Part shown: positions 12,400-27,622 of the stretch, piece after piece
How the letters are laid out: the number at the start of each line of letters is the position of its first letter
Position numbering within the stretch: position 1 is the first letter of the stretch
Origin: a virus
Direction: 5' to 3' (one strand)
IMG/VR virus record: IMGVR_UViG_3300008113_000094
Location: 1 to 44,911 of that record
DNA length: 44,911 nucleotides
The notes under the pieces: model-generated
The model's database searches: none
What the model was told of the DNA's origin: nothing
What the model saw: only the letters and a program-made list of their open reading frames with translations
Made by a program: the position numbers and the translations under genes

Positions 12400-12477
12400 G
12401 GGCCGTTAGCTCATGTTGGTTAGAGCAGTGGACTCATAATCCATTGGTGGTGTGTTCGACTCACACACGGCCCACCA
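12400..12477 (+). tRNA. tRNA with CAT anticodon, probably Ile2 (lysidine-type)
   Basis: Seven-bp acceptor GGGCCGT/ACGGCCC, loop CTCATAA, T-loop TTCGACT, encoded CCA. The anticodon stem context GGACTCATAATCC is like Ile2 tRNAs, whose C34 is converted to lysidine to read AUA. It is one of three CAT tRNAs; the others look like initiator and elongator Met. Confidence 0.85.
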
Positions 12478-12484
12478 AGAATTT

Positions 12485-12571
12485 GCGAGTGTGGTGAAAT
12501 AGGTAGACACAAGAGACTTAAAATCTCTCGCCCTAACAGGCGTGCCGGTTCGATTCCGGCCACTCGTACCA
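12485..12571 (+). tRNA. tRNA-Leu(TAA)
   Basis: Acceptor GCGAGTG/CACTCGT, anticodon arm AGAGA-CTTAAAA-TCTCT, long variable arm typical of class II tRNAs, A73 and encoded CCA. Confidence 0.93.
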
Positions 12572-12577
12572 ATTACA

Positions 12578-13087
12578 ATGGACGCAATTTTAAAAACCTT
12601 AGAAGAAAACTGGCAAACAGTTCTAGAAGAAAGTTTGTCTAACATACACAGACGCAGGGATTTCCCTCAAGCCGACGATGTGTATTTTTCTGGTTGGAAA
12701 TTTATTCCATTTAGGCAAGAAGATAGAGAATTTGAAAGTTCTAAACGTAAGTTGCCACACACATGGAACATGTTGAAAGATTTAAAACATGTGACCAGAT
12801 GTGCTATATTGTCGTTGGAACCCGGTGGTGTGCTGGACATACACAAAGGACCGCACGGCGACGAAGGATTGGTATGGAGAGGGCACCTAGCACTGCAAAC
12901 CAATCCAGATGCATACATGATCATTGGCAACGAACGTAAGAATTGGGTGCCTGGGCAATGGTTGTTTTTTGACGACGAGGTTGAGCATGGTGCTTATAAC
13001 TATGGCAAAGAATTAAGAATTATTTTAGGTTTAAGTTTTTTGAAAAGTCATTGGAAATTAACAGATCAAGGAATTGAGTATAAATAA
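12578..13087 (+). CDS. Aspartyl/asparaginyl beta-hydroxylase-like 2OG-Fe(II) oxygenase
   Basis: 169 residues from the ATG 7 nt after the tRNA-Leu; an in-frame ATG at 12542 lies within the tRNA and is rejected. The fold signature is LEPGGVLDIHKGPHG (His89/His93), GHLALQTN, then PGQWLFFDDEVEHGAYN (His137) and a later Arg147 that would hold 2-oxoglutarate, as in the Asp/Asn hydroxylase family. Catalyses O2- and 2-oxoglutarate-dependent hydroxylation, substrate unknown. It is read from the tRNA promoter, as no other promoter lies between. First of six related oxygenases in the window. Confidence 0.82.
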   Translation: MDAILKTLEENWQTVLEESLSNIHRRRDFPQADDVYFSGWKFIPFRQEDREFESSKRKLPHTWNMLKDLKHVTRCAILSLEPGGVLDIHKGPHGDEGLVWRGHLALQTNPDAYMIIGNERKNWVPGQWLFFDDEVEHGAYNYGKELRIILGLSFLKSHWKLTDQGIEYK

Positions 13088-13228
13088 TTTTGTGCAACGC
13101 CGTTAACAACGACGTCGGAATCAAACTAGACCTCTATGTCTTAAATGCGTGGGCCTATCCGTATGTGATTAATCGCTAGCCTTAAGCTGGTTGACTTAGG
13201 TCAACTGTTAAAGTAAAATGTAGTATAT
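13079..13228 (+). other. Gap with TATAAATA box and palindromic promoter
   Basis: TATAAATA occurs at 13079-13086, overlapping the stop of the oxygenase gene. The following 100 nt hold no reading frame or clear stem-loop except CGACGTCG near 13110. The right end carries the promoter listed separately. Confidence 0.35.
13191..13219 (+). promoter_or_regulatory. Promoter with dyad over the -35 box
   Basis: TTGACT (13191-13196), 17 nt, TAAAAT (13214-13219). The -35 lies inside GTTGAC-TTAG-GTCAAC (13190-13205), a 6-bp inverted repeat that could be an operator. It would drive tRNA-Leu(TAG) and the four metabolic genes that follow. Confidence 0.65.
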
Positions 13229-13311
13229 GCCCCTTTGGTGGAATTGGTAGACACGCTGGTCTTAGAAGCCAGTGCGCGAGCGTCCGAGTTCGAGTCTCGG
13301 AGGGGGCACCA
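13229..13311 (+). tRNA. tRNA-Leu(TAG)
   Basis: Acceptor GCCCCTT/AGGGGGC, anticodon arm CTGGT-CTTAGAA-GCCAG, long variable arm GCGCGAGCG, encoded CCA. Confidence 0.93.
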
Positions 13312-13339
13312 AATTTTAAAAGTTTAAGGAAAACTAATC

Positions 13340-13789
13340 ATGATCGTAAAAGAAACCCACCCACGAACTCTGAGTAAAACTGTTGCCTATAGAGTTCTTT
13401 GTACCATTGCAATTCTATTAATTACCTATTTTTACAGTGGATCACTGACTACCAGTGCATCAGTTGGTTTAATCTCGGTAATTGTTGGATCTACTTTGTA
13501 TTATTTGCACGATCGTGCTTGGCTGTTTGTGGCCTGGCACCGCAATGACACCGGCAACGATACAAAAATCAGAAGTCTGGTAAAAACTGTTGTATATCGA
13601 ATCATAGTAATGATCGCGGCATTTATTACTTTTAAGTTTGTGGCCACCGGCGGCAGCAACAGCGATGCGGCGTTTTTAACTATTGCACAAATGGTAGTTA
13701 ATTTAATTAATTATTATATTGTTGAACGATTCTTTGACAGTATTACCTGGGGTAAAAAAATTCCGCAGGAGCAAGAGGTTCAGTCATGA
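13340..13789 (+). CDS. DUF2061-type membrane protein, internally duplicated
   Basis: 149 residues, four hydrophobic segments arranged as two repeats. Repeat 1 is about residues 8-68 (KTVAYRVLCTIAILLITYF ... LYYLHDRAWLF) and repeat 2 about 80-135 (KTVVYRIIVMIAAFITFKF ... INYYIVERFFDSI). Each has the KT-x-x-YR start and the YYxxxRxx end that I associate with DUF2061, whose single units occur in bacterial inner-membrane proteins of unknown function. It sits at the head of an operon with an adenylating enzyme, a NeuD-like acyltransferase and an oxygenase, and overlaps the next start by ATGA. Ribosome-binding site AAGGA precedes the ATG. Confidence 0.75.
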   Translation: MIVKETHPRTLSKTVAYRVLCTIAILLITYFYSGSLTTSASVGLISVIVGSTLYYLHDRAWLFVAWHRNDTGNDTKIRSLVKTVVYRIIVMIAAFITFKFVATGGSNSDAAFLTIAQMVVNLINYYIVERFFDSITWGKKIPQEQEVQS

Positions 13790-14931
13790 ATCAATACCTA
13801 GAACAAATTTTTTATAATGGCGCTGTTATTGTAAGAGAAGATGGAACAGAATTAACTGGCCCTCATTTACAGGCTGCTCTGTTCCAACGCCAAAATGCAG
13901 ACCCGTTGTGCCGCAGTGATCAACCCAGTGAATTGCTACTACAGCAATTGAGTGCTTGGTTGTTTGGTAGAAAATTTCTAGGATATGGAGCCAGGCCTGG
14001 CAATCCACATCAGCCCGACAATATACAAGACTGGGACTGGGTTTGCTATACGTCTGGTACAACCGGTTACTACAAAGCCGTTGGACACAAATGGTCTACT
14101 GCACAACAATATATTGAATCTAGTACCCCTTATTGGGGGCTAGACGATTCAAGTGTTATGCTTATGCAAGCCCCGTACAGTAGCATGGGCATTTATAGTC
14201 CTGCTTGGCCAACGCTTATTGCTGGCGGCCGAGTGGTATATAAACCATTCAATCCTTACACCTGGTGCGATGATGTTGCACACATAAGACCCACACACGG
14301 TTTTATGATTCCTAGAATGATGCAATTGGTCAGCATGACCAAAGCATTTGAAAATGCAGACTTTAGCCATTACAAGTTAAATTGTTTAGGCGGAAACTTT
14401 TTTAATCAACGCATAGTCGAACAGTTTGGCGATAGAGGAATGAAATGGCGCTATTGTTATGGTAGCACAGAGCTGACACCGCCAGTGTGTTTCAGTGATA
14501 CCACTAGCGTGTTTAAAAATTGGTTGCCAGGATTTGAATACAAGTTGGAAGACGATGGCGAAATGCTGGCACGTTGGAGTAGTCAGGAAAACTGGCACCG
14601 AACAGGTGATTTGTTTATACAAAAAGATTCTGGTGTACTAAGCATGGTTGGTCGTAAAAGTTTTATGATCAAACACAGAGATTTTCGTGTGCAACCTGAA
14701 CAAGTAGAAACAGTGGCCAAGTATTTAAACACAGTCAACGAGTGTTTGCTAACGCTCGAAGACGAAAAGCTAACCTTAAAATACGAAGGCGATGTTGATC
14801 TAAGTCAGCTGAAAGATATACTACACGAACATTTAGAAAAACATCTTGTACCATCTCGATATGTTCGTGTTGATGAACTGCCTAAAAATTTAATGGGTAA
14901 GTTAATTCGTCCATACATACCTGTGGCATGA
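13786..14931 (+). CDS. Standalone ANL-family adenylating enzyme (AMP-dependent ligase)
   Basis: 381 residues, about 100-150 shorter than typical acyl-CoA synthetases because the N-terminal lobe is reduced. Core motifs are complete: phosphate loop YTSGTTGYYKA (88-98), A5-like YCYGSTELTP (223-232), WHRTGDLF (270-277), hinge GRKSFMIKHRDFRV (289-302) and the C-terminal catalytic Lys in NLMGKLIRP (Lys372). It should activate a carboxylic acid as acyl-adenylate and pass it to CoA, a carrier or an amine. No carrier domain is present. Coupled by ATGA to both neighbours, a DUF2061 membrane protein and a hexapeptide acyltransferase, so it may supply the acyl group used by the latter. Confidence 0.88.
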   Translation: MNQYLEQIFYNGAVIVREDGTELTGPHLQAALFQRQNADPLCRSDQPSELLLQQLSAWLFGRKFLGYGARPGNPHQPDNIQDWDWVCYTSGTTGYYKAVGHKWSTAQQYIESSTPYWGLDDSSVMLMQAPYSSMGIYSPAWPTLIAGGRVVYKPFNPYTWCDDVAHIRPTHGFMIPRMMQLVSMTKAFENADFSHYKLNCLGGNFFNQRIVEQFGDRGMKWRYCYGSTELTPPVCFSDTTSVFKNWLPGFEYKLEDDGEMLARWSSQENWHRTGDLFIQKDSGVLSMVGRKSFMIKHRDFRVQPEQVETVAKYLNTVNECLLTLEDEKLTLKYEGDVDLSQLKDILHEHLEKHLVPSRYVRVDELPKNLMGKLIRPYIPVA

Positions 14932-15635
14932 AACCAGTAATTTTTGTAGGACACAGATCCGATATGACCTTTTACACAGACATCTGTGAATTGGAAGGTC
15001 GCGAAGTATTAGGCATATTGGATCAATATTACTACGGACGAGTTGAAGCTACTACCGACGGAATACCAATCATTGGTGACGAACGTTGGTTACTTGAAGA
15101 ACGAGGCCAACATTGGTTAAACAGTTGCGAATTTTTTATTGGGAACTTTTTTAACGGAGTTCCTAATAGAGAAAACAAATCAATGAGTGGAAATCATTTA
15201 CGTAATGAACGAATTCAGTTGTTACATAATACCAAGGCTAACCTGGCAAATTTTATTCATCCGGGATCTCTGGTTCATAAAACTGCACAAATTGGTCGCG
15301 GAGTGTTTGTTGGATGGGGCACTAACATTCAAGCTCACGCAGTAGTTGGCAATCATTGTCATATTGGCGTGGCTGGTTGTGTTGTGGGCAACAATACAAA
15401 AGTAGGCAATAATGTAACAATCATGGGTCCTGGCAGTATTGGCAGTGGAATAACTATCGAGGATAATGTTGTGGTAGGTCCCTTGCATGGAATTTATTTA
15501 CGTGCCAAAGAAGGTCAGCTGGTAGTAGGAAAAAATTCTATTATTCATCCCAATAGTGTTTTATATTCTAGCTTGCCGGAAAATTCTATATGGACCAGAG
15601 ATAACCGCCGAGTGCATAACCACCATGTTGATTGA
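14928..15635 (+). CDS. NeuD/PglD-like sugar O- or N-acyltransferase
   Basis: 235 residues. The N-terminal part (about 1-90; MKPVIFVGHRSDMTFYTDI...) looks like the Rossmann-like PglD_N domain; residues 105-225 form a left-handed beta helix of hexapeptide repeats (IHPGSLVHKTAQIGRG, VVGNHCHIGVAGCVVGNNT, VTIMGPGSIG). Family members transfer acetyl or related groups from CoA to UDP-amino sugars or sialic acids. Next to an adenylating enzyme, the donor may be an unusual acyl group; this is inference. The last 11 nt overlap the next gene. Confidence 0.8.
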   Translation: MKPVIFVGHRSDMTFYTDICELEGREVLGILDQYYYGRVEATTDGIPIIGDERWLLEERGQHWLNSCEFFIGNFFNGVPNRENKSMSGNHLRNERIQLLHNTKANLANFIHPGSLVHKTAQIGRGVFVGWGTNIQAHAVVGNHCHIGVAGCVVGNNTKVGNNVTIMGPGSIGSGITIEDNVVVGPLHGIYLRAKEGQLVVGKNSIIHPNSVLYSSLPENSIWTRDNRRVHNHHVD

Positions 15636-16263
15636 CACAGCAGTAAAGTCGTTGGGTACAGTACCGCAAAAGTTAATTGATGAGTTTGCCAACGTCTGTC
15701 AGCAAGTTGATTGGTCACACGAAGATTTTGGCCGTGGTAATAACCTTACCATTGGATCCAAGGTTGTGCGAATTCCGTATGGCGTTAGACAAGACCCTTA
15801 TCAGCCCGACACACCACAGGTATTAATGGTGCGAGATGCATTTAAAAAAATTGATCAGTGGGCACACACCCAGCTGTCAGACAAGATTTTTGTCAAAGGT
15901 GAAATCAATTATATGTTTCCAAACAGCATACTTGATTTCCATTATGACCCTTGCTGGTTCCATGAGCACGGATCTAGAATTCATATTCCAATTTTTACCA
16001 ATCCCCAATGTCATTGGCTTCAAGGAAAAGAAAAAACTTTCATGCCAGTTGGACATTTGTATGAGGTAAATAATAGAGTACTACACAGTTTTTGGAACAA
16101 TGGAACTACTGGAAGAGTGCATGTGGTGCTTGACATACTAGACAAAAATCTATACAATCAAGCTATAGAACAAAACATTGTAATTGACTCATTTACAATA
16201 GATCCAACCATAACAGACCCAAAAAATATTTTAGATGAACTGCTTGACCAAGGAAAAATTTAG
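15625..16263 (+). CDS. 2OG-Fe(II) oxygenase, Asp/Asn hydroxylase-like
   Basis: 212 residues from the ATG at 15625; an earlier in-frame start lies deep inside the acyltransferase gene. Iron ligands are suggested by DFHYDPCW (His106, Asp108) and RVLHSFWN (His154), with Arg164 for 2-oxoglutarate. IHIPIFTNPQCHWLQ between them matches the family layout. Substrate unknown. It ends the operon that begins at the 13191 promoter; it could hydroxylate the product of the adenylating enzyme/acyltransferase pair. Confidence 0.78.
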   Translation: MLIDTAVKSLGTVPQKLIDEFANVCQQVDWSHEDFGRGNNLTIGSKVVRIPYGVRQDPYQPDTPQVLMVRDAFKKIDQWAHTQLSDKIFVKGEINYMFPNSILDFHYDPCWFHEHGSRIHIPIFTNPQCHWLQGKEKTFMPVGHLYEVNNRVLHSFWNNGTTGRVHVVLDILDKNLYNQAIEQNIVIDSFTIDPTITDPKNILDELLDQGKI

Positions 16264-16304
16264 AATGTTTCGAATACGGAACACCGCTCTTGACTGAATA
16301 GTTT

Positions 16305-16405
16305 AGGAGTGTTGCTAATATTGGCCTAAGGGCGAGATTTATATCCTCGTAAGCACTGTCTAGATAAGGCAGTTAATGTGGGTTCGATTCCCACCGCTCC
16401 TACCA
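16305..16405 (+). tRNA. Atypical tRNA-Ile(GAT)-like gene with D-loop insertion
   Basis: 101 nt. Acceptor AGGAGTG/CGCTCCT, T arm GTGGG-TTCGATT-CCCAC, 5-nt variable loop TTAAT and encoded CCA are normal. The anticodon arm CTGTC-TAGATAA-GGCAG carries GAT but has A instead of the invariant T33. The D region is 44 nt rather than about 19: a short stem GCT/AGC encloses an extra hairpin GCGAG-loop-CTCGT (16331-16350). A class II reading with anticodon TAT in that hairpin is possible but needs an A-C mismatch. It may be a decaying copy, since a normal tRNA-Ile(GAT) lies at 22079. Confidence 0.6.
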
Positions 16406-16441
16406 AATTTTTATAAATGGTAAATAAATTACAAAAAGTAA

Positions 16442-16470
16442 TTGACACAAGAGATAAATAAGTATACAAT
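16442..16470 (+). promoter_or_regulatory. Consensus promoter ahead of an attenuator-like leader
   Basis: TTGACA (16442-16447), 17 nt, TACAAT (16465-16470). Transcription should start near 16477, a few nt before the ATG of a 40-codon reading frame. Confidence 0.75.
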
Positions 16471-16480
16471 AGAGACTAAG

Positions 16481-16603
16481 ATGAACAAAACCGCATTAAA
16501 TTATTGCAGAATGTTTGGGGGTAAACAGCCCGTGCCAGCCTTTTGGCATGAGTCAACCTCTACAAGTATTCGCGATAATTCTACAGGGGTTCTGAGAACG
16601 TAA
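16481..16603 (+). CDS. Possible 40-residue leader peptide
   Basis: Begins MNKTALNYCRMFGGKQPVPA and ends with GVLRT. It would be nearly leaderless (start point about 4 nt upstream), and there is no ribosome-binding site, so translation is uncertain. Its last codons form the left arm of the first of two mutually exclusive hairpins (see the regulatory entry). That placement is what one expects of a leader peptide whose translation controls a downstream hairpin. Confidence 0.3.
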   Translation: MNKTALNYCRMFGGKQPVPAFWHESTSTSIRDNSTGVLRT

Positions 16604-16657
16604 TAGTCTAATTACAAGATTCACAGAACCCCAGGACTAAACACCCTGGGGTTTCTT
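16586..16657 (+). promoter_or_regulatory. Two mutually exclusive hairpins (attenuator-like)
   Basis: GGGGTTCTG (16586-16594) is complementary to CAGAACCCC (16624-16632). The overlapping segment AACCCCAGG (16627-16635) is complementary to CCTGGGGTT (16645-16653), which is followed by the T-rich TTCTTATTT. Only one stem can form at a time. A ribosome finishing the 40-codon frame would cover the first arm and favour the second, terminator-like stem. The gene controlled would be the 56-residue protein starting at 16676. Confidence 0.5.
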
Positions 16658-16675
16658 ATTTGAAAACAGGAAAAG

Positions 16676-16846
16676 ATGAAAGAAATTAAAGTTAAGACAA
16701 AATCTATTAAAGAGCTTGAGTTTATGCGACAGCACACTCTAACACAAGAAGATACTAACAAGTTGATTCGAGAAAAGTTAGAACGTGCTCGTGCATATTC
16801 TGAAGCTTGGAGAAAGCGAGATACACTATTGGCCGAACGCCGATAA
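16676..16846 (+). CDS. Small basic coiled-coil-like protein
   Basis: 56 residues starting MKEIKVKTKSIKELEFMRQH and ending LLAERR, with ribosome-binding sequence AGGAA about 6 nt upstream. Highly charged, predicted helical, no Cys. It lies in a tRNA region between an attenuator-like leader and another promoter. The family is unknown. Confidence 0.55.
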   Translation: MKEIKVKTKSIKELEFMRQHTLTQEDTNKLIREKLERARAYSEAWRKRDTLLAERR

Positions 16847-16859
16847 TATCTCAAAGTGG

Positions 16860-16889
16860 TTGACAGGAAACGAGGTCCTGCTATACACT
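16860..16889 (+). promoter_or_regulatory. Promoter of structured RNA and tRNA-Asn
   Basis: TTGACA (16860-16865), with TATACA 16 nt or TACACT 18 nt downstream (16882-16889). Start expected near 16895. Confidence 0.7.
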
Positions 16890-16894
16890 ATAAA

Positions 16895-17040
16895 AAATAG
16901 CAAACGGGCGGCCTGTAGGATGAAGTCTCTTTTGTGAGATGAAAAATTACAGCGTATTAAAGCATTCTCTATCCGCAAGGAGACACGTGGGTTCATCCAT
17001 GAAGAGTGCTTTAATACACACACTCGATAAGAGTGTGTAA
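16895..17040 (+). ncRNA. Structured RNA upstream of tRNA-Asn
   Basis: About 145 nt without a convincing reading frame. A long stem pairs 16954-16968 with 17003-17017 (core GTATTAAAGCA/TGCTTTAATAC, 15 bp with wobble pairs). GGATGAA (16919-16925) can pair with TTCATCC (16992-16998). It ends in ACACACTC-GATAA-GAGTGTGT (17018-17038). The promoter just upstream supports transcription. T4 also encodes small stable RNAs among its tRNAs, a precedent by position only. Confidence 0.5.
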
Positions 17041-17049
17041 ATAGTTTAT

Positions 17050-17124
17050 TCCAGTGTAGCACAGCGGTAGTGCAGTTGACTGTTAATCAATTGGTCGTAG
17101 GTTCGATCCCTGCCACTGGAGCCA
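17050..17124 (+). tRNA. tRNA-Asn(GTT)
   Basis: Acceptor TCCAGTG/CACTGGA, anticodon arm GTTGA-CTGTTAA-TCAAT, T-loop TTCGATC, G73 and encoded CCA. Confidence 0.93.
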
Positions 17125-19387: not shown

Positions 19388-19462
19388 GCCGGATTAGCAC
19401 AGTGGTAGTGCAATCGCCTTGTAAGCGATAGGTCGTCTGTTCGAACCAGACATCCGGCACCA
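19388..19462 (+). tRNA. tRNA-Thr(TGT)
   Basis: Acceptor GCCGGAT/ATCCGGC, anticodon arm ATCGC-CTTGTAA-GCGAT, encoded CCA. Confidence 0.93.
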
Positions 19463-19740: not shown

Positions 19741-19816
19741 CGCAGAGTGTTAGAAGTGGCATCTGGCTAGGCTCATAACCTAGAGGTCGGTGGTTCGAAT
19801 CCACCCTCTGCAACCA
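19741..19816 (+). tRNA. Initiator-type tRNA-fMet(CAT)
   Basis: 76 nt. The first base C1 faces A72 (CGCAGAG against CTCTGCA), the unpaired 1-72 end used by bacterial formyltransferase; the other six acceptor pairs are perfect. The D-stem TAGA/TCTG gives A11-T24, the purine-pyrimidine pair typical of initiators. The anticodon arm is CTAGG-CTCATAA-CCTAG, with two of the three usual G-C pairs. T-loop TTCGAAT, A73, CCA. Confidence 0.88.
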
Positions 19817-19820
19817 ACAT

Positions 19821-19896
19821 AGGACTTTAGCTCAGTTGGTAGAGCGTCTGCCTTACACGCAGAATGTCGTCAGTTCGAACCTGGCAAGTCCTACCA
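19821..19896 (+). tRNA. tRNA-Val(TAC)
   Basis: Acceptor AGGACTT/AAGTCCT, anticodon arm TCTGC-CTTACAC-GCAGA, encoded CCA. It begins 4 nt after the initiator tRNA. The 112 nt following it form small hairpins such as GTGG/CCAC but no gene. Confidence 0.93.
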
Positions 19897-20008: not shown

Positions 20009-20085
20009 CGGAGTGTAGCGCAGTCTGGTAGCGCACCTGGTTTGGGACCAGGGGGTCCAAGGTTCGAATCCTTGTACTCCGACCA
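20009..20085 (+). tRNA. tRNA-Pro(TGG)
   Basis: Acceptor CGGAGTG/TACTCCG, anticodon arm CCTGG-TTTGGGA-CCAGG, encoded CCA. Confidence 0.93.
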
Positions 20086-20258: not shown

Positions 20259-20334
20259 GGGGCCATAGCTCATCTGGGAGAGCGCCTGTTTTGCAAGCAG
20301 GAGGCGGTCGGTTCGAGTCCGACTGGTTCCACCA
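20259..20334 (+). tRNA. tRNA-Ala(TGC)
   Basis: Acceptor GGGGCCA/TGGTTCC with two G-T pairs, anticodon arm CCTGT-TTTGCAA-GCAGG, encoded CCA. Confidence 0.92.
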
Positions 20335-20340: not shown

Positions 20341-20416
20341 GCGGGTGAAGTGTTTACGGTTACACGTCAGTCTTCCAAACTGAAATAGACGAGTTCGAAT
20401 CTCGCCTCCCGCTCCA
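20341..20416 (+). tRNA. tRNA-Gly(TCC)
   Basis: Acceptor GCGGGTG/CTCCCGC with one mismatch, anticodon arm TCAGT-CTTCCAA-ACTGA, T73 as usual for Gly, encoded CCA. Confidence 0.9.
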
Positions 20417-20421: not shown

Positions 20422-20495
20422 GTATCCCTGATGTAATGGCAGCATAGCGGTCTCCAAAACCGTTCGTCGGAGTTCGAGTCTCTGGGGGTATGCCA
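20422..20495 (+). tRNA. tRNA-Trp(CCA)
   Basis: Acceptor GTATCCC/GGGGTAT with two wobble pairs, anticodon arm GCGGT-CTCCAAA-ACCGT, G73 as in bacterial Trp tRNA, encoded CCA. Confidence 0.9.
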
Positions 20496-20501: not shown

Positions 20502-20593
20502 GGAAGTGTGGCAGAGCCCGGTTTATTGCTACAGTCTTGAAAACTGTCGAGTCAGAAATGGCTCCGTGAGTTCGAATCTCACCGCTTCCACCA
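20502..20593 (+). tRNA. tRNA-Ser(TGA)
   Basis: Acceptor GGAAGTG/CGCTTCC, anticodon arm ACAGT-CTTGAAA-ACTGT, long variable arm, encoded CCA. Confidence 0.93.
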
Positions 20594-20632
20594 AATATGT
20601 TTATTTGTTGTAAAAATACAACAACACGCTGG

Positions 20633-20662
20633 TAGACCAAAAAATTGAATTAAATGTATACT
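20633..20662 (+). promoter_or_regulatory. Promoter in repeat copy 1
   Basis: TAGACC (20633-20638), 18 nt, TATACT (20657-20662). Confidence 0.55.
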
Positions 20663-20734
20663 AGAGACTAGTTAGGAAATTAACTAAGTTTGTGATCGAG
20701 CAAACAACGTTGTAAAAATACAACAAAAAACTAG

Positions 20735-20763
20735 TAGACACTTAATTCGATTAAATGTATACT
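20735..20763 (+). promoter_or_regulatory. Promoter in repeat copy 2
   Basis: TAGACA (20735-20740), 17 nt, TATACT (20758-20763). Start expected near 20770, directly upstream of the structured RNA. Confidence 0.6.
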
Positions 20764-20769
20764 AGAGAC

Positions 20770-21051
20770 TAGTTAGGAAATTAACTAGACGTTCTTTAAG
20801 AAGTTGTTGTTTTAGGTAACCCGCAAGGGTTGCTATTTTAAAACGTATTAAAGGTTACCTACACCGTTAGGGATCTAAGGCGAGGACAGTGGGGCCGCCC
20901 ACGCTCAAGCTAGGTCTATGAAGCCGAGCAGTAATGCTCAGAAAAGCGGCGGATCATGTGGGCAGTAATGACCGTGCAGGCTTATAGGAGACGGTCCTAT
21001 AAGTAGACATAGATGCACAATGGTTCCTTTAGTACTTTTTAAAATAGTTTT
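20770..21051 (+). ncRNA. Structured RNA with GNRA tetraloops, upstream of tRNA-Asp
   Basis: Base composition is GC-rich against AT-rich surroundings and there is no reading frame. Stems: AGGTAACC (20814-20821) with GGTTACCT (20853-20860), which competes with AACCC-GCAA-GGGTT (20819-20832); GAGCA-GTAA-TGCTC (20926-20939); CTTATAGGA-GACGG-TCCTATAAG (20981-21003, 9 bp); and GTGGG/CCCAC. GCAA and GTAA are GNRA tetraloops, common in folded RNAs with tertiary contacts. Two tandem promoters precede it. It could be a GOLLD-like or unnamed phage RNA. Confidence 0.6.
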
Positions 21052-21128
21052 GGTCCCATAGTATAGCCTGGTCAGTACAGCGGCTTGTCACGCCGTCGGC
21101 AGGGGTTCGAATCCCCTTGGGACCGCCA
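21052..21128 (+). tRNA. tRNA-Asp(GTC)
   Basis: Acceptor GGTCCCA/TGGGACC, anticodon arm GCGGC-TTGTCAC-GCCGT, G73, encoded CCA. Confidence 0.94.
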
Positions 21129-21431
21129 AGTTTTGTTAGAGTGTCAGCAAGTGAAGTCACGCTGTTCAGTATTCTTCGAAGGTACTGCTCAGTAGAAGGT
21201 TTTGGGTTCAACTCCCACCCGCGGGGAACTGCGGAGGCCTGTAACGGAGGCAGACTGGATGAATCCCAAGTGACGTACCGAGTCCCGCTCGAGCTTGTTA
21301 CACGGGTGAATGGTGCTAATAACGATGGTAGCACTACTTTAACAAATTCATTTTTGAGAGCCACATCGCCTGGATACTTCCCTCGGTAACGAGGCACTAG
21401 GTCTTGCAACCGTGGCTCTCCACTTTTAACA
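21129..21431 (+). ncRNA. Structured RNA between tRNA-Asp and tRNA-Glu
   Basis: About 300 nt without a supported gene; reading frames on both strands here are chance. Stems: CAGTA/TACTG with an apical TTCG region near 21170; CCGC/GCGG (about 21220-21236); GTGCTA/TAGCAC (21313-21318 with 21329-21334); GAGAGCCAC (21356-21364) with GTGGCTCTC (21412-21420), perfect 9 bp, enclosing CCTGG/CTAGG and CCTCG-GTAA-CGAGG (21381-21394), again a GNRA loop. It is followed by a Rho-independent terminator. Confidence 0.6.
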
Positions 21432-21434
21432 CGG

Positions 21435-21479
21435 CCCTGTTCGGTTGCTTAACTGGACTGCTACAGGGTTTTTCTTTTT
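21435..21479 (+). terminator. Rho-independent terminator
   Basis: CCCTGT (21435-21440) pairs with ACAGGG (21463-21468), with an inner hairpin GGTT/AACT, followed by TTTTTCTTTTT. It ends the structured RNA transcript 2 nt before tRNA-Glu begins. Confidence 0.7.
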
Positions 21480-21481: not shown

Positions 21482-21556
21482 GGAGCATTCGTCTATCGGT
21501 TAGGACATCAGGTTTTCATCCTGAGAAGAGGGGTTCGACTCCCCTATGCTCTTCCA
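21482..21556 (+). tRNA. tRNA-Glu(TTC)
   Basis: Acceptor GGAGCAT/ATGCTCT, anticodon arm TCAGG-TTTTCAT-CCTGA, encoded CCA. It starts directly after a terminator, so its promoter must be upstream read-through. Confidence 0.92.
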
Positions 21557-21820: not shown

Positions 21821-21907
21821 GGAGATGTAGGAAAATTGGTAACCCCAGTGGACTGTAAATCCGCCGCCCGAAAGGCACTACTGGTTCGACTCCAGTCGTC
21901 TCCACCA
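21821..21907 (+). tRNA. tRNA-Tyr(GTA)
   Basis: Acceptor GGAGATG/CGTCTCC, anticodon arm GTGGA-CTGTAAA-TCCGC, long variable arm as in bacterial Tyr, encoded CCA. Confidence 0.93.
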
Positions 21908-21913: not shown

Positions 21914-21988
21914 GCGGGTATAGCTCAGAGGTAGAGCAGTAGACTTTTAATCTATTGGTCGAAGGTTCGATCCCTTCTGCCCGTACCA
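21914..21988 (+). tRNA. tRNA-Lys(TTT)
   Basis: Acceptor GCGGGTA/TGCCCGT, anticodon arm GTAGA-CTTTTAA-TCTAT, encoded CCA. Confidence 0.93.
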
Positions 21989-21995: not shown

Positions 21996-22073
21996 GCACC
22001 GATGGCAGAGTGGCCCAATGCACGGGATTGCAAATCCTGAAAACCGCAGGTTCAAATCCTGCTCGGTGTTCCA
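21996..22073 (+). tRNA. tRNA-Cys(GCA)
   Basis: Acceptor GCACCGA/TCGGTGT, anticodon arm CGGGA-TTGCAAA-TCCTG, T73 as in bacterial Cys, encoded CCA. Confidence 0.92.
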
Positions 22074-22078: not shown

Positions 22079-22153
22079 AGCCGTGTAGCTCAGAGGAAGA
22101 GCATTGTCTTGATAAGGCAAGGGTCGACATTTCGAAATTGTCCATGGCTACCA
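22079..22153 (+). tRNA. tRNA-Ile(GAT)
   Basis: Acceptor AGCCGTG/CATGGCT, anticodon arm TTGTC-TTGATAA-GGCAA with normal T33, encoded CCA. The T stem GACAT/TTGTC has one mismatch. Confidence 0.9.
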
Positions 22154-23017: not shown

Positions 23018-23091
23018 TGGGGGTTAGTGTAGCGGTAACACTACAGACTTTGACTCTGTCATCACTGGTTCGATCCCAGTACCCTCTGCCA
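23018..23091 (+). tRNA. tRNA-Gln(TTG)
   Basis: Acceptor TGGGGGT/ACCCTCT with a weak T-T first pair (a weak 1-72 pair is typical of Gln), anticodon arm ACAGA-CTTTGAC-TCTGT, G73, encoded CCA. Confidence 0.9.
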
Positions 23092-23096: not shown

Positions 23097-23171
23097 ATCG
23101 CTGTAGTATAATGGATAATACACTAGGCTACGAACCTGGGAATTGTGGTTCGATTCCATACAGCGATACCA
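23097..23171 (+). tRNA. tRNA-Arg(ACG)
   Basis: Acceptor ATCGCTG/CAGCGAT, anticodon arm CTAGG-CTACGAA-CCTGG, encoded CCA. A34 would need deamination to inosine to read CGC and CGA. Confidence 0.92.
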
Positions 23172-23178: not shown

Positions 23179-23253
23179 CTCGCTTTCGTATAATGGATAA
23201 TACAGTAGGCTTCTACCCTACGAATGTGGGTTCGATTCCTGCAGGCGAGGCCA
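23179..23253 (+). tRNA. tRNA-Arg(TCT)
   Basis: Acceptor CTCGCTT/AGGCGAG, anticodon arm GTAGG-CTTCTAC-CCTAC, G73, encoded CCA. Confidence 0.92.
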
Positions 23254-23259: not shown

Positions 23260-23335
23260 GGTGACATTAGTGTAGTGGCCTGCACACTAGTCTGTGAAAC
23301 TGGTAGTACCGGATCGATACCGGTATGTCACCCCA
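23260..23335 (+). tRNA. tRNA-His(GTG)
   Basis: Extra 5' G (G-1 at 23260) opposite C73, the His identity feature; acceptor GTGACAT/ATGTCAC; anticodon arm CTAGT-CTGTGAA-ACTGG; encoded CCA. Confidence 0.93.
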
Positions 23336-23339
23336 ATTT

Positions 23340-23416
23340 GGGACATTAACTCAGTTCGGAAGAGTCTTGGTCTTCGAAACCAATGGTCGGGGGTTCAAAT
23401 CCCTCATGTCCCTCCA
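23340..23416 (+). tRNA. tRNA-Arg(TCG)
   Basis: Acceptor GGGACAT/ATGTCCC, anticodon arm TTGGT-CTTCGAA-ACCAA, T-loop TTCAAAT, encoded CCA. Third Arg isoacceptor of the cluster. Confidence 0.9.
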
Positions 23417-23426
23417 TAAATAATTT

Positions 23427-23624
23427 ATGGACTATAGAAAAAAAGAGTTTATCGAACTATTAGACGAATTGGTGTCACACCACGCTCGTCAATACAAAGA
23501 TCCACACTTGGCCCTGATATATACCAAAGGGTTTTTTATGTCAATGCTAGCAGATCTTGCGCTCGATGACACTTATGTTGCATCAAGAATTAAACAAAAA
23601 TACAAAAAACTGTTTGACAAATAA
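23427..23624 (+). CDS. Small hypothetical protein
   Basis: 65 residues, helical, starting MDYRKKEFIELLDELVSHHA. No ribosome-binding site; CATAAATA (23415-23422) sits 4 nt before the ATG and overlaps the CCA of tRNA-Arg, another possible late-type box with a leaderless start. The C-terminal codons contain the consensus promoter for tRNA-Ser(GCT). Unknown function. Confidence 0.6.
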   Translation: MDYRKKEFIELLDELVSHHARQYKDPHLALIYTKGFFMSMLADLALDDTYVASRIKQKYKKLFDK

Positions 23625-23642
23625 CAAGTTTTAATCTATAAT
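23614..23642 (+). promoter_or_regulatory. Perfect consensus promoter of tRNA-Ser(GCT)
   Basis: TTGACA (23614-23619), 17 nt, TATAAT (23637-23642). The -35 box lies in the last codons of the preceding gene. Confidence 0.88.
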
Positions 23643-23651
23643 ACAGTTATT

Positions 23652-23739
23652 GGAGTATTGGCCGAGCGGTTAAGGCAACAGATTGCTAATCTGTCACTGG
23701 GCAACCGGTGGGTAGGTTCGATTCCTACATACTCCGCCA
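23652..23739 (+). tRNA. tRNA-Ser(GCT)
   Basis: Acceptor GGAGTAT/ATACTCC, anticodon arm ACAGA-TTGCTAA-TCTGT, long variable arm, G73, encoded CCA. Confidence 0.93.
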
Positions 23740-24067
23740 GAACGTTCCAGCGTCACTGGATACTCTGACCCAGAGGATGAGAAGTAGTGTGACAACTACG
23801 GGTGGTAGTCTTTGAACCAAAAAGGCCGCTAGCAATGCGATAACGGTCCCTGTCGGGAAGCGGGTGGAGGGTGTAAGTGATGGAAGACTAGTTTGGGAGT
23901 GAATAACTTTTGAATGAAACGCCTGATACACTATAATTACCGCCGGGGGATGCAGAGCATACATAAACACACCCATCGTGGACTCTGTGAAACCCGGATA
24001 GTCTATAAGTCGGTTCCTGCAAGGCTTGCACTGAAAATGCCGGGTAAGGTGTGTTTATATATGTTTT
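23740..24067 (+). ncRNA. Structured RNA region with internal promoter, upstream of tRNA-Phe
   Basis: 328 nt without a supported gene. The right half has nested stems: ATAAACACACC (23963-23973) with GGTGTGTTTAT (24048-24058), ACCCGG (23992-23997) with CCGGGT (24040-24045), and TGCAA-GGC-TTGCA (24018-24030). A promoter at 23910-23937 would start transcription about 20 nt before the outer stem. The left half (23740-23900) contains smaller inverted repeats such as CCAG/CTGG. Confidence 0.55.
23910..23937 (+). promoter_or_regulatory. Promoter of structured RNA and tRNA-Phe
   Basis: TTGAAT (23910-23915), 16 nt, TATAAT (23932-23937). Confidence 0.6.
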
Positions 24068-24143
24068 GGCGACATAGCTCAGTCGGTAGAGCAGTAGACT
24101 GAAAATCTATGTGTCGGTGGTTCAATTCCACCTGTCGCTACCA
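24068..24143 (+). tRNA. tRNA-Phe(GAA)
   Basis: Acceptor GGCGACA/TGTCGCT, anticodon arm GTAGA-CTGAAAA-TCTAT, encoded CCA. Confidence 0.93.
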
Positions 24144-24199
24144 CTACACTCACTTTAATTCAACGTACAGAATATTATACAAAATTTTACAAAAGTATT

Positions 24200-24275
24200 G
24201 GTAGAGTAGCATAGTGGCTAATGCACCAGCTTCATACGCTGTTTATCGTGGGTTCGAGTCCCACCTCTACTACCA
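24200..24275 (+). tRNA. tRNA-Met(CAT), elongator type
   Basis: Acceptor GGTAGAG/CTCTACT, anticodon loop TTCATAC with a 4-5 bp stem CAGC/GCTG, encoded CCA. The GCTTCATACGC context resembles elongator Met tRNAs of organelles and some bacteria. Confidence 0.85.
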
Positions 24276-24291
24276 AAATTTGGAGATTATT

Positions 24292-24468
24292 ATGACTACT
24301 TTTAAAAAATTTCAGCCAATGACCTTGAACGCCGGCAAGCTAGTACAAGATTTGATTACCCGAGGTGGTACCATTGTAGTTGATAAAAAAGAATTTGTCT
24401 TGGTCAAACGTATGCAAAGTGTAGCAAAGGTTGATCAATACGGACGAGTTGAATGGCGCCCGGAGTAA
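24292..24468 (+). CDS. 58-residue hypothetical protein
   Basis: Begins MTTFKKFQPMTLNAGKLVQD and ends RVEWRPE. The ATG at 24292 is preceded by TGGAG at 24281-24285; an upstream in-frame start lies within tRNA-Met and is rejected. Beta-rich, basic. Possibly a small nucleic-acid-binding protein, but no family is recognisable. Probably shares the tRNA-Met transcript. Confidence 0.6.
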   Translation: MTTFKKFQPMTLNAGKLVQDLITRGGTIVVDKKEFVLVKRMQSVAKVDQYGRVEWRPE

Positions 24469-24486
24469 ACTGGGCTATATATAGAT

Positions 24487-25053
24487 ATGACCTGGCTACT
24501 AGACTATCATAGAAGTAACACATTTTGGTCCTGGCGGGCCGAGATGTTTACCAACGAGCAGTTGTCAAATATTATTAAACTTGGTAAGCAATTAGAATCA
24601 AAAGATGGCGAAGCCGTGGGCGCACCTACAGCAAGATCAAGTCGTGTTTCCTGGTTGCACCCGGGTCCCGAAACCAATTGGATCTATGAAACATTGACCT
24701 GGAACATTAACGCAGTTAACAAAGACAAATTCAATTATGCACTTTCGCATATAGAACCTCTTCAATTTACCGAGTACGATAGTAATTATCAAGGTTTTTA
24801 TTCCAAGCACTTAGATATGGGCAATGGTGCTGGTGGTTCGAGAAAGCTGTCATTTGTTTTGCAGTTGAGCGACCCCAACGAGTACCAAGGTGGCGAACTT
24901 AAATTACACTGCTCCAATGAGCCAACAATACTGCCCAAAGACAAAGGAAAATTATTATTTTTCCCCAGTTGGGTACTACACGAAGTTACACCAGTTACCC
25001 AAGGCACAAGGCATAGTCTAGTTGGGTGGATAGCTGGGCCAGCATTCAAATGA
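24487..25053 (+). CDS. 2OG-Fe(II) oxygenase, prolyl-4-hydroxylase type
   Basis: 188 residues. YSKHLDMG (His108, Asp110), SFVLQLSDPNEYQGGELKL, KLLFFPSWVLHEVTPV (His165) and TRHSLVGW (Arg175) give the complete jelly-roll active site of P4H-like dioxygenases, a family frequent in T4-like aquatic phages. The substrate could be protein or nucleotide; not inferable. Coupled by ATGA to the radical SAM gene that follows, suggesting sequential chemistry on one substrate. Confidence 0.88.
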   Translation: MTWLLDYHRSNTFWSWRAEMFTNEQLSNIIKLGKQLESKDGEAVGAPTARSSRVSWLHPGPETNWIYETLTWNINAVNKDKFNYALSHIEPLQFTEYDSNYQGFYSKHLDMGNGAGGSRKLSFVLQLSDPNEYQGGELKLHCSNEPTILPKDKGKLLFFPSWVLHEVTPVTQGTRHSLVGWIAGPAFK

Positions 25054-26504
25054 AAAGTATATTATTTGTAACTGCTCCTTGGACTGATACTCAAATGCCC
25101 TTGATGGCGCCTGCAATTTTAAAAAGCGTGGCCGAACAAGCAGGCTACGTGGCCACAGTTTACGAACTTAATGCAGAAATAGCAGAGTTAATCAGAGGAC
25201 ATAAAAATAAAAATTCAATCATTGAATTTTTCTTCAATGGTTTAATCAAGCCTGAAGTTGAACAAGAAGTATTTGACCTAATAGAATCAAAAGCACAGCA
25301 GATAGTCAACCGCAAGTGTGACATTGTGGCATTTAGTGTTTTTACATATTCGAGTCAAATTAGCACCAAGTGGCTTTGCTATCTAATCAAAAAACTTAAC
25401 CCAACAATAAAAATTTTAATCGGTGGTGCCGGCATATTAGATAATCTAACTGGCAGTGGCCATTATGCAGAAGACTTGTTAAGCACTGGTCTAATAGATC
25501 ATTACATTCGTGGCGACGGCGAACATGCACTGATAAATTATCTTAGAGGTGATGCAGAATACCCTGGGGTTAACTCTAATCATTGGAAAGAATTATCTAA
25601 CAACGAGTTGGAATCATTGCCAATGCCCAACTATGATGATTATGATTGGTCTAAATACGATTTAAAAGCATTGCCAATATTGGGCAGTCGCGGGTGTGTC
25701 CGCCAGTGTACTTTTTGTGATATACATGCACACTGGAATAAATTTACCTGGCGCTCGGGTAAAAACATATTTGACGAAATGATACTGTTAAGTAAAAAAT
25801 ACAATATCTATCACTTTAAATTTCAAGACAGTTTAATTAACGGCAACATGAAAGAGTATAGAGAGCTAGTTACTCTATTGGCAGAACATAACTCTACAGC
25901 AAAAAATCCAATCAGCTGGAATAGTTTTTTCATATTCAGACCAGCTACACATTTTAAAGAACGTGATTGGGAGTTAACTGCACGTAGCGGTGCTAAACAA
26001 CTATTAGTCGGAGTAGAAAGCCTTAGCGAACATGTACGCAACCATATGGGCAAAAAATTTAGCAATGACGACATTGAGTATGGTTTAGAACAAGCTCACC
26101 GGTTGGGAATAAAACTGGGACTTTTAATGATTGTTGGCTATGTAACAGAAACAGAAACTGATATTCAATTTGCCGAACAATGGTGGAAAGACCATCAACA
26201 CTATGCCAACAACACCATTGATTTTGTCAATCTTGGTGGCACACTGGGTATTTTAAAAAATACTCCTTTGGAAAAGAATTTTATACCACTAAATTTAATA
26301 CGCACAGGACCCGGCGATCAAGACTGGGCCAATCCTGCTATCAGCAGTACTCCACAACAACGAGCTGAATGGAGTATGCGTATAAGGCGTGTGTTACAAG
26401 ATTGTGGCTACAAAGAATACCAAAGTGTCAGTGACGCTCATTTGGTTATGGAACAGTTAATGAAAAGAGACAGTCAATGGATCAACTCAATAAATCAAAT
26501 TTAA
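25050..26504 (+). CDS. Radical SAM enzyme with B12-binding-like N-terminal domain
   Basis: 484 residues from the ATG overlapping the previous stop. The N-terminal 1-200 is organised like cobalamin-binding/B12-type Rossmann domains of this class (ILFVTAPW..., IVAFSVFTYSSQ, ILIGGAG, YIRGDGEHALI), although the DxHxxG cobalamin motif is absent. The cluster-binding motif CVRQCTFC gives Cys216, Cys220, Cys223, followed by KFQDSLINGN and GVESLSEHVRNHMGK as in the TIM-barrel of these enzymes. Such proteins perform radical methylations or rearrangements on lipids, antibiotics or cofactors. Substrate unknown. It overlaps the next gene by 28 nt. Confidence 0.85.
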   Translation: MKSILFVTAPWTDTQMPLMAPAILKSVAEQAGYVATVYELNAEIAELIRGHKNKNSIIEFFFNGLIKPEVEQEVFDLIESKAQQIVNRKCDIVAFSVFTYSSQISTKWLCYLIKKLNPTIKILIGGAGILDNLTGSGHYAEDLLSTGLIDHYIRGDGEHALINYLRGDAEYPGVNSNHWKELSNNELESLPMPNYDDYDWSKYDLKALPILGSRGCVRQCTFCDIHAHWNKFTWRSGKNIFDEMILLSKKYNIYHFKFQDSLINGNMKEYRELVTLLAEHNSTAKNPISWNSFFIFRPATHFKERDWELTARSGAKQLLVGVESLSEHVRNHMGKKFSNDDIEYGLEQAHRLGIKLGLLMIVGYVTETETDIQFAEQWWKDHQHYANNTIDFVNLGGTLGILKNTPLEKNFIPLNLIRTGPGDQDWANPAISSTPQQRAEWSMRIRRVLQDCGYKEYQSVSDAHLVMEQLMKRDSQWINSINQI

Positions 26505-26905
26505 CATTGGAGTTTGAAATTGGATTTCTCAATGATCATAATATGTCTTTGATCATTGATGGCAAACTATTTGACTCTTTTAGTAGTCCAGATTTTGTTT
26601 ATACAAAACAAATAGAATTGCCAACTGCGGTGTGCATTGAAGTACGAGGTAAAGGAAAAAATGATACTCTAGTAGACGACAATGGGCTGATAGTCAAAGA
26701 CAAATATATTTTATTAAAAAATATTCGTTTAGACGGAGTCAGTTGTGATCCTGTTTATTGTCATAAAGCAATAACTCTAAACACTGGCACTGACAAAATA
26801 AAAAGCCCCTACTGGGGCTTTAATGGATTTGTGCAAATTGATTTCAATGAGCCAAATGGCTTTAGGTGGCTTATAAAGACTCGGAATCTGGCAACGGTAC
26901 AGTAG
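26477..26905 (+). CDS. Beta-rich hypothetical protein
   Basis: 142 residues. Starts within the end of the radical SAM gene. Alternating hydrophobic pattern (LTLEFEIGFLNDHNMSLIID) suggests a beta-sandwich. Its 3' part contains a hairpin that works as a terminator on the opposite strand (26793-26821), and its end overlaps the convergent gene by 35 nt. No family recognised; it might be an accessory subunit of the upstream enzymes. Confidence 0.6.
   Translation: MDQLNKSNLTLEFEIGFLNDHNMSLIIDGKLFDSFSSPDFVYTKQIELPTAVCIEVRGKGKNDTLVDDNGLIVKDKYILLKNIRLDGVSCDPVYCHKAITLNTGTDKIKSPYWGFNGFVQIDFNEPNGFRWLIKTRNLATVQ
26793..26821 (-). terminator. Rho-independent terminator for - strand gene, inside a + strand coding region
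   Basis: AAAGCCCC (26802-26809), loop, GGGGCTTT (26814-26821). Read on the - strand the stem is followed by TTTTTATTTTG, a good T-tract. It lies about 50 nt beyond the stop of the leftward malonyl-CoA-decarboxylase-like gene. Confidence 0.7.
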
Positions 26906-27479
26906 TATAGTCGTAACTTACCATCCATCCCATGCTTTCAGATTGTCTTAGTTGACTACGGTCTGCATTGGGCCACAGATGCCAAGGCATAGCACCATTG
27001 CTAATATGAAAACGGGCCACAGGGTCTTTTTTATCACTGATAAATTGCCATATGGCATCTTGTTCGGGTAGAATTTGACTTTTGGTCAAACTGGGAATAG
27101 GACTTAGAGTAATAAATTTATTAATCTCGGGATACTGTCTTTTGATATCTTTAACAGCACCAAATAAAAGTTTTTGTGTAGCACCTTTGCTACCAACTGC
27201 TTCTGGTAGTCTAAAAATACTATAAAATACAGCAAACTCATATGGGCCATTGCTAACTTCATCGTCCCAAAGTTGATCTGCACTAGTTGGGGCCTGTTTG
27301 CACAGTGCAACCTGTAAGAATACTTCGGGCTGGTCACCATTCAGCATGGTGTAGACTATACGATCATTTTTTACTCTACGTTCGATAGTTTTTATCTCGT
27401 CGGCAGGGTGTACCGGGTCCTGGTGTAGGACGTCTAGCCATGATGGTTTAAATGTTGTGCTTCGATTTGAAATGATCAT
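26871..27479 (-). CDS. Malonyl-CoA decarboxylase-like protein (catalytic domain only)
   Basis: 202 residues, against more than 400 in cellular enzymes. It follows the catalytic C-terminal domain of malonyl-CoA decarboxylase block by block: VHPADEIKTIERRV near 23, EVFLQVALC near 52, FAVFYSIFRLP near 82, KFITLSPIPS (catalytic Ser in TLSPIP, 124-129) and KDPVARFHISNGAM (catalytic His158). That domain has a GNAT-like fold and decarboxylates malonyl-CoA to acetyl-CoA. The helical N-terminal domain is missing. It has its own promoter and terminator on the - strand. An altered acyl-CoA substrate is possible. Confidence 0.78.
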   Translation of the reverse strand: MIISNRSTTFKPSWLDVLHQDPVHPADEIKTIERRVKNDRIVYTMLNGDQPEVFLQVALCKQAPTSADQLWDDEVSNGPYEFAVFYSIFRLPEAVGSKGATQKLLFGAVKDIKRQYPEINKFITLSPIPSLTKSQILPEQDAIWQFISDKKDPVARFHISNGAMPWHLWPNADRSQLRQSESMGWMVSYDYTTVPLPDSESL

Positions 27480-27489
27480 ATAAAATCTC

Positions 27490-27517
27490 TTGAATTTTTA
27501 TCTATTTATATTATAAT
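27490..27517 (+). promoter_or_regulatory. Promoter of tRNA-Gly(GCC)
   Basis: TTGAAT (27490-27495), 16 nt, TATAAT (27512-27517). It shares its -10 region with a - strand promoter. Confidence 0.55.
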
Positions 27518-27538
27518 TGTAAATACACTAACAATCAA
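27510..27538 (-). promoter_or_regulatory. Divergent promoter of malonyl-CoA-decarboxylase-like gene
   Basis: On the - strand: TTGATT (27538-27533), 17 nt, TATAAT (27515-27510). TATAAATA (27510-27503) follows directly, so both early-type and late-type signals may control this gene. Confidence 0.6.
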
Positions 27539-27546
27539 GTTCTTTT

Positions 27547-27622
27547 GCGGGATTAGCTCAGTTGGTAGAGCGCAACCTTGCCAAGGTTGAGGTCGCGAGT
27601 TCGAGCCTCGTTTCCCGCTCCA
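27547..27622 (+). tRNA. tRNA-Gly(GCC)
   Basis: Acceptor GCGGGAT/TTCCCGC, anticodon arm CAACC-TTGCCAA-GGTTG, T73, encoded CCA. It lies 3.3 kb to the right of the main cluster. Confidence 0.92.

Follow-up and report, generated by a model that had tools for sequence, protein, structure and literature searches.

The 44.9-kb IMG/VR fragment IMGVR_UViG_3300008113_000094 (44,911 nucleotides, analysed over its whole length and hereafter called the window) carries between positions 12400 and 27622 tRNA genes for all 20 amino acids, one of which, a tRNA-Ile(UAU) at 16305-16405 with two anticodon-like arms (the two-armed tRNA), is the main subject of this study. The encoded proteins assign the fragment to a large, T4-related phage, as they comprise a large terminase (TerL) with T4-like domains, a gp32-like single-stranded DNA-binding protein, a UvsX-like RecA, UvsY, a UvsW-like helicase and a DNA polymerase. 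TerL has at least 597 relatives in IMG/VR, the best 80 of them at 69-77% identity, and because some of these sit on contigs of 180-354 kb, the full genome is probably much larger than the window.

The window was searched for tRNA genes with ARAGORN and with the Rfam model RF00005 at its curated gathering score. ARAGORN returned 27 genes and Rfam 28 (39-73 bits), the additional one being the two-armed tRNA. All of them lie on the + strand (Table 1), all 28 end in an encoded CCA, and they are scattered across 15 kb between protein genes, with no single packed array. The initial annotation, made from the sequence alone, had counted 28 CCA-encoding tRNA genes serving every amino acid, and both searches bear this out, with all 20 isotypes passing the tRNA models. 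What it had listed as two Ile genes plus a probable Ile2 corresponds to tRNA-Ile(GAU) at 22079, the unusual tRNA-Ile(UAU) at 16305 and an Ile2 at 12400, and its remark that very few phages achieve such coverage is fair, 8 of 228 viral tRNA clusters having all 20 isotypes in a published survey (PMC6409571). The observation of a complete set is right and rare, and of an already known kind; the most unusual member of the set, the two-armed tRNA, had been overlooked. Three tRNAs bear a CAU anticodon (12400, 19741 and 24200). The first, with G1-C72 and C4-G69, has near full-length matches in E. coli that are annotated as tRNA-Ile in 4 of the 5 listed genomes and as tRNA-Lys in the other one; it is assigned by sequence as Ile2, and its C34 is presumably modified to lysidine. 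By its C1.A72 mismatch the second is classed as the initiator, and the third is the elongator tRNA-Met by elimination.

Table 1. tRNA genes of the window and parts of the two-armed tRNA.
Feature	Position	Strand	Evidence or remark
tRNA-Ile2 (CAU)	12400-12477	+	ARAGORN, Rfam, E. coli matches
tRNA-Leu (UAA)	12485-12571	+	ARAGORN, Rfam
tRNA-Leu (UAG)	13229-13311	+	ARAGORN, Rfam
Two-armed tRNA-Ile (UAU), A1 to CCA	16305-16405	+	Rfam, family comparison
D-arm region of the two-armed tRNA	16314-16332	+	GCU 16314-16316 can pair with AGC 16352-16354
Hairpin 1, UAU anticodon arm, loop UUUAUAU	16333-16349	+	Anticodon 16340-16342
AGC, alternative 3' strand of the D stem (fold B)	16352-16354	+	Invariant, 65/65
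Hairpin 2, GAU-like anticodon arm, loop UAGAUAA (A for U33)	16356-16372	+	Family comparison
tRNA-Asn (GUU)	17050-17124	+	ARAGORN, Rfam
tRNA-Thr (UGU)	19388-19462	+	ARAGORN, Rfam
tRNA-fMet (CAU), C1.A72 mismatch	19741-19816	+	ARAGORN, Rfam
tRNA-Val (UAC)	19821-19896	+	ARAGORN, Rfam
tRNA-Pro (UGG)	20009-20085	+	ARAGORN, Rfam
tRNA-Ala (UGC)	20259-20334	+	ARAGORN, Rfam
tRNA-Gly (UCC)	20341-20416	+	ARAGORN, Rfam
tRNA-Trp (CCA)	20422-20495	+	ARAGORN, Rfam
tRNA-Ser (UGA)	20502-20593	+	ARAGORN, Rfam
tRNA-Asp (GUC)	21052-21128	+	ARAGORN, Rfam
tRNA-Glu (UUC)	21482-21556	+	ARAGORN, Rfam
tRNA-Tyr (GUA)	21821-21907	+	ARAGORN, Rfam
tRNA-Lys (UUU)	21914-21988	+	ARAGORN, Rfam
tRNA-Cys (GCA)	21996-22073	+	ARAGORN, Rfam
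tRNA-Ile (GAU)	22079-22153	+	ARAGORN, Rfam
tRNA-Gln (UUG)	23018-23091	+	ARAGORN, Rfam
tRNA-Arg (ACG)	23097-23171	+	ARAGORN, Rfam
tRNA-Arg (UCU)	23179-23253	+	ARAGORN, Rfam
tRNA-His (GUG)	23261-23335	+	ARAGORN, Rfam
tRNA-Arg (UCG)	23340-23416	+	ARAGORN, Rfam
tRNA-Ser (GCU)	23652-23739	+	ARAGORN, Rfam
tRNA-Phe (GAA)	24068-24143	+	ARAGORN, Rfam
tRNA-Met elongator (CAU)	24200-24275	+	ARAGORN, Rfam; by elimination
tRNA-Gly (GCC)	27547-27622	+	ARAGORN, Rfam

Rfam aligned the two-armed tRNA, missed by ARAGORN, at 39.3 bits with about 32 nt inserted in the D loop. From 5' to 3' the gene consists of the acceptor stem (AGGAGTG/CGCTCCT) with TT after its first strand, a 19-nt D region, hairpin 1, the linker UAAGCA, hairpin 2, UUAAU, the T arm, A73 and CCA. 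Hairpin 1 (CGAGA-UUUAUAU-CCUCG) presents a UAU anticodon preceded by U33. Hairpin 2 is CUGUC-UAGAUAA-GGCAG, and its loop, YAGAUAA, is the anticodon loop of tRNA-Ile(GAU) save for an A in place of U33. The resemblance includes the stem: 3 of 17 positions differ between hairpin 2 and the arm of the window's own tRNA-Ile(GAU), and in the relative L192 the ten stem bases (CCGUC/GGCGG) are identical to those of its own tRNA-Ile(GAU), the loops differing only at position 33. This same stem is the commonest for hairpin 2 among the homologues (20/65). Hairpin 2 looks like a copied tRNA-Ile(GAU) anticodon arm.

We gathered homologues by BLAST and pattern scans, the patterns being exact and the counts therefore a lower bound on family size. 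At least 65 distinct two-armed homologues were found in unrelated phages, including isolates of the Autographiviridae, Drexlerviridae, Ounavirinae, Stephanstirmvirinae and Schitoviridae, the Vibrio phages Pylo and River4, and many metagenomic phages; by pattern search, 7 of 21 relatives carry the gene. In GenBank, the two-armed genes at KY619305.1 7367-7487, OL539453.1 47140-47241 and MN158208.1 about 46309-46410 are unannotated or (BEK6) lie partly under a predicted open reading frame. All 65 distinct sequences have A73, the hairpin-1 loop YUUAUAN and the hairpin-2 loop YAGAUAA; 63 of them form every base pair of hairpin 2, and at the Levitt pair 15-48 there is A-U in 40 and G-C in 24. Since these invariance counts depend partly on the search patterns, we ran two checks with less bias. 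One pattern, silent on hairpin 2, retrieved 34 true tRNAs, every one with YAGAUAA. Another, silent on hairpin 1 and leaving positions 32-33 of the second loop free, retrieved 62 tRNAs, all with UAU and all with YAGAUAA (eight of the hairpin-1 loops were read by eye, the script having chosen another helix); its hits that failed the stem test were non-members, bar L092, which has an extra base. When applied to 84,980 prokaryote genomes, the latter pattern found only 2 true members, in a Sulfurovum metagenome-assembled genome and in Actinobacillus vicugnae, the copy in the latter matching an IMG/VR entry exactly. The family is therefore essentially viral.

The structure was assessed by covariation over 26 pairs in 18 diverse rows, against 500 shuffles and slid versions of the same structure. 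Paired cells reached 97.6%, compared with 66.5% after shuffling, and no shuffle scored as high; cells changed on both sides numbered 147 versus 41, and 21 of the 26 pairs changed on both sides, with every pair of both hairpins covarying. No slid version came near the score of the proposed structure. Covariation and conservation together rule out chance or a pseudogene as the origin of the 28th gene. A tRNA-Leu, tRNA-Ser or selenocysteine tRNA gene was likewise ruled out, as A73 goes with an Ile loop and there is no matching anticodon, and a group I or bacterial tRNA intron is unsupported, Rfam detecting no such element in the 32-nt insert.

In the group to which the window belongs, the D region has canonical length and two possible partners for its GCU: a nearby AG, which gives C11-G24 in 65/65 and U12-A23 in 58/65 sequences (89%), or the AGC that follows hairpin 1. 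The latter pairing, fold B, moves hairpin 2 to the place of the anticodon arm in a class I tRNA, leaves a variable loop of 5 nt in 51/65, and has the lower computed energy in 65/65. As the D-stem strands are invariant, covariation cannot decide between the two pairings. It could be argued that fold B is the sole real fold, the molecule being a tRNA-Ile(GAU) whose D loop carries a 32-nt insert and whose UAU hairpin takes no part in decoding, serving as a decoy or binding site or persisting as a relic. The Rfam alignment of the window gene and the ARAGORN reading of L206 both agree with this, the GCU-AGC stem is intact in every sequence while its competitor loses U12-A23 in some, and the lower energies and the normal length of the variable loop speak for it too. 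We nevertheless consider it unlikely, given that hairpin 1 retains the anticodon-loop-like Y32 U33 UAU A37 in 65/65 sequences, that hairpin 2 has no U33, and that a second architecture exists in which the UAU arm itself occupies the anticodon position. This architecture, found in Vibrio phages Thalassa, Brizo, henriette 12B8 and others, as well as in L034 and L017, combines a canonical covarying D arm (GUUU-AAAC, GGUU-AACC, GCUC-GAGC) with an extra variable arm of loop CAGAUAA. Two divergent type II tRNA-Ile(UAU) genes are also present in relatives of the window (L277 39-130 and L279 29-121, reverse strand of the stored locus).

Isoleucine identity in E. coli depends in detail on G34, A35, U36 and A38. 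The isoleucyl-tRNA synthetase (IleRS) requires A73, the anticodon and t6A37 (PMC9976931) and does not charge a tRNA with unmodified C34 (PMC11938285), and UAU has been described as an anticodon that bacteria and phages lack or that is "prohibited" in them (PMC8007984). Given these anticodon needs and this status, a UAU tRNA probably has a charging problem in ordinary hosts. A phage IleRS or TilS was rejected as the solution: no IleRS-type synthetase (PF00133) turned up in the 19 phage records searched, which would leave charging of the two-armed tRNA to a host enzyme, and a TilS-type domain (PF01171) scored above cut-off only in G005, a relative in which the pattern search found no two-armed tRNA. 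With hairpin 2 as the anticodon arm, as in fold B, the Ile determinants A73, G34 A35 U36, A37, A38 and U12-A23 are all present, whereas hairpin 1 fails at U34; position 38 is fixed in hairpin 2 and varies in hairpin 1.

The distribution of the gene supports a role in AUA supply, since in small coliphages its only companion is a tRNA-Arg (UCU in ESCO41), in PhiM1 no other tRNA accompanies it, and carriers use more AUA: the AUA share of Ile codons is 28% in the window and 14.5% in ESCO41, compared with 4% in 16 genes of E. coli, which may not be the host of the window phage. Both AUA and AGA/AGG were scarce in these sampled E. coli genes. AUA behaves as an isoleucine codon in alignments of the window TerL, where homologues with other codons at the AUA sites mostly have Ile and not Leu, with a ratio I/(I+L) of 0.87, against 0.90 for AUU.

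We propose that hairpin 2, the GAU-like arm with A33, would be held out to the host IleRS, permitting isoleucine charging without lysidine even though host synthetases generally expect G34 or lysidine-34, and that hairpin 1, with its U33, would read AUA on the ribosome. Charging would in this way be split from decoding: A33 would bar the GAU arm from decoding, and in molecules of the window's type the two hairpins may alternate at the anticodon position through a D-stem switch, a scheme that we put forward tentatively as a real possibility. Charging by one arm, decoding by the other, refolding between the two states and a benefit during infection are what we infer from the sequences. For the locus as a whole, we judge it only slightly short of an even chance that it encodes a complete, self-sufficient phage set whose 28th member is a virus-specific tRNA charged via its GAU-like arm and reading AUA via its UAU arm.

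Several points weigh against this proposal. Fold B has the stronger D stem and leaves hairpin 1 outside the decoding position, and 42 of the 65 hairpin-1 stems are mismatched, nearly always at 31-39. A33 is invariant, though a U33 there would only bring isoleucine to isoleucine codons, so blocked decoding does not fully explain it. L277 (CAGAUUA) and L279 (UAGAUGG) hold YAGAU but not A37 A38, which weakens strict synthetase mimicry. The window phage has an Ile2 for AUA, which makes the two-armed tRNA redundant there, and, by analogy with other phages, defence escape is plausible as a second role of the whole set.

The long extra arm and A73 are also compatible with leucine, and the molecule might then be a class II tRNA charged by the leucyl-tRNA synthetase or another long-arm synthetase, AUA being partly or wholly read as another amino acid. 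The same has been suggested for the nematode nev-tRNA-Ile(UAU), which takes leucine in vitro (PMC4300185). This seems improbable to us, as AUA sites in the window TerL are far more often Ile than Leu in homologues, the extra arm has an Ile GAU loop that leucine recognition would not need, and AUA would be ambiguous in a phage that also has Ile2. Still harder to credit is the idea that hairpin 2 acts as an internal pseudo-codon or structural lock, the AUA within GAUAA pairing with the UAU loop. The UUAU of loop 1 is indeed complementary to the AUAA of loop 2, but divergent members retain YAGAU and lose AUAA (AUUA, AUGG), so that GAU is the more conserved part, and the stem identity with tRNA-Ile(GAU) arms would be left unexplained.

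Among known tRNAs, the tRNA-Ile(UAU) of Mycoplasma mobile and Lactobacillus plantarum are ordinary class I molecules, and the IleRS of these organisms accepts UAU. They share with the two-armed tRNA the use of UAU for AUA, without need for lysidine as far as they are cited in PMC9976931 and PMC11938285, and differ from it in having no extra GAU-like arm and in the synthetase, the phage records searched holding none of the IleRS type. The UAU arm is followed by about 28 nt with a 5-bp hairpin, unlike the 4-5 nt variable loop of a class I tRNA-Ile(UAU); of the class II features, a variable region of at least 10 nt containing a stem and a normal D arm, the long arm is present and the D arm is canonical in the second architecture and weak in the window's type. 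With bacterial tRNA-Ile(GAU) it has in common the copied anticodon arm (its stem identical in L192), A73 and a possible U12-A23, but it has A for U33 in 65/65, an additional UAU arm and, when read in that way, a D loop with an insert of about 32 nt. The nev-tRNA-Ile(UAU) resembles it in outline only, by its UAU anticodon and long extra arm; it is eukaryotic and leucine-charged, and we found no mention of a GAU-like loop in PMC4300185. In bacterial allo-tRNAs the acceptor/T stems are 8/4 or 9/3 and G73 marks serine identity, UAU being a common anticodon of the 8/4 type (PMC7609411). UAU and a long arm are shared with them, yet the two-armed stems are 7/5, with all acceptor and T-stem pairs formed in the 18 rows, and A73 is present in 65/65, so that stems and base 73 rule out an allo-tRNA. 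We found no published account of a two-armed phage tRNA-Ile(UAU) in open PMC papers, which is not proof of novelty.

Leaving the two-armed tRNA out, the 27 ordinary tRNAs read 49 of 61 codons by strict wobble and 61 of 61 sense codons if U34 superwobbles and reads four-codon boxes, which would depend on the modification state in the host. Under superwobble they are in principle a complete decoding set, as a phage independent of host tRNAs would require. By anticodon count, they include the kind of 25-tRNA minimal set reported for the Plasmodium falciparum apicoplast (PMC12069591); like it, the set is near the minimum for the whole code and has three CAU tRNAs, and unlike it, it comprises 27 ordinary genes (an extra Arg UCG and a second Gly) in a phage with no ribosome of its own. 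All 20 isotypes are also carried by phage XacN1 (PMC5852040) and by Vibrio phage Pylo (23 ARAGORN genes), and, as with these and the 8 surveyed clusters, the window phage is large, with many tRNA genes covering all amino acids; Pylo has a two-armed tRNA as well. The window set differs from known all-20 clusters in covering 61 codons (by superwobble), in adding the two-armed tRNA-Ile(UAU) and in its dispersed genes.

As to purpose, the 27 ordinary tRNAs would supply codons poorly read by the host and would keep phage translation going if host tRNAs were cut. Codon supply also accounts for the set and explains much of it, AUA making up 28% of Ile codons in the window against 4% in the E. coli genes. 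Phage tRNAs that evade tRNA-depleting defences have been published for other phages (PMC10264068), and T5 tRNA-Tyr acts against retron-Eco7 (PMC11555353); by analogy, escape from host tRNA depletion is plausible for the window set. The window itself gave no sign of host tRNA breakdown, although no search aimed at nuclease or tRNA-repair genes was made. The set might instead be codon compensation only, with all-20 coverage a by-product of accumulation in a large genome and no defence escape. The enrichment of AUA in the window fits such an origin, as do the differing gaps (Phe, Val, Gln, Lys) of near-complete sets in relatives, such as G005 (27 genes without Phe), G010 (24 without Phe and Val) and G002 (22 without Phe). 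We find this rather doubtful, because complete coverage extends to codons that are read well in every host (Trp, Phe, Asp, Glu) and because tRNAs of T5 and other phages have been shown to counter tRNA-cutting defence (PMC11555353).

Other features of the region deserve mention. Directly 3' of the two-armed tRNA, the non-coding stretch 16410-17045 folds far better than its shuffles (z about -7.3) and has parts matching L171, L087, L012 and L246; Rfam gave no match to it, and it is a candidate new structured RNA. A second non-coding stretch, 20600-21045, also without an Rfam match, has a z of about -7.5 and an 80-nt direct repeat of 87.5% identity (20607-20686 and 20709-20787). Between tRNAs, parts of the non-coding stretches 21135-21478 and 23742-24064 are 74-81% conserved in relatives, with weak or no excess folding (matching relatives listed: L084, L174, L166 and L157; L087, L085 and L192). 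The protein genes among the tRNAs include two Asp/Asn beta-hydroxylase-like proteins and one 2OG-Fe(II) oxygenase (12542-13087, 15556-16263 and 24487-25053), a B12-binding radical SAM protein (25026-26504) with a single viral relative by pattern search (L083, 65% identity) and, on the - strand at 26871-27479, a 202-residue protein matching the malonyl-CoA decarboxylase C-terminal domain, which is odd for a phage.

Because the window set in principle needs no host tRNA, it offers a clear test case for codon supply versus survival when host tRNAs are cut. Of greater interest than the full set is the two-armed tRNA: UAU is "prohibited" in the literature (PMC8007984), yet unrelated phages share a UAU tRNA with a copy of the Ile(GAU) arm, possibly giving the virus access to an anticodon that is all but unused in bacteria. 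If the second arm is indeed used for charging, synthetase recognition and codon reading would lie at separate places of one tRNA, and the molecule would serve as a naturally occurring model, and perhaps as a tool, for codon reassignment.

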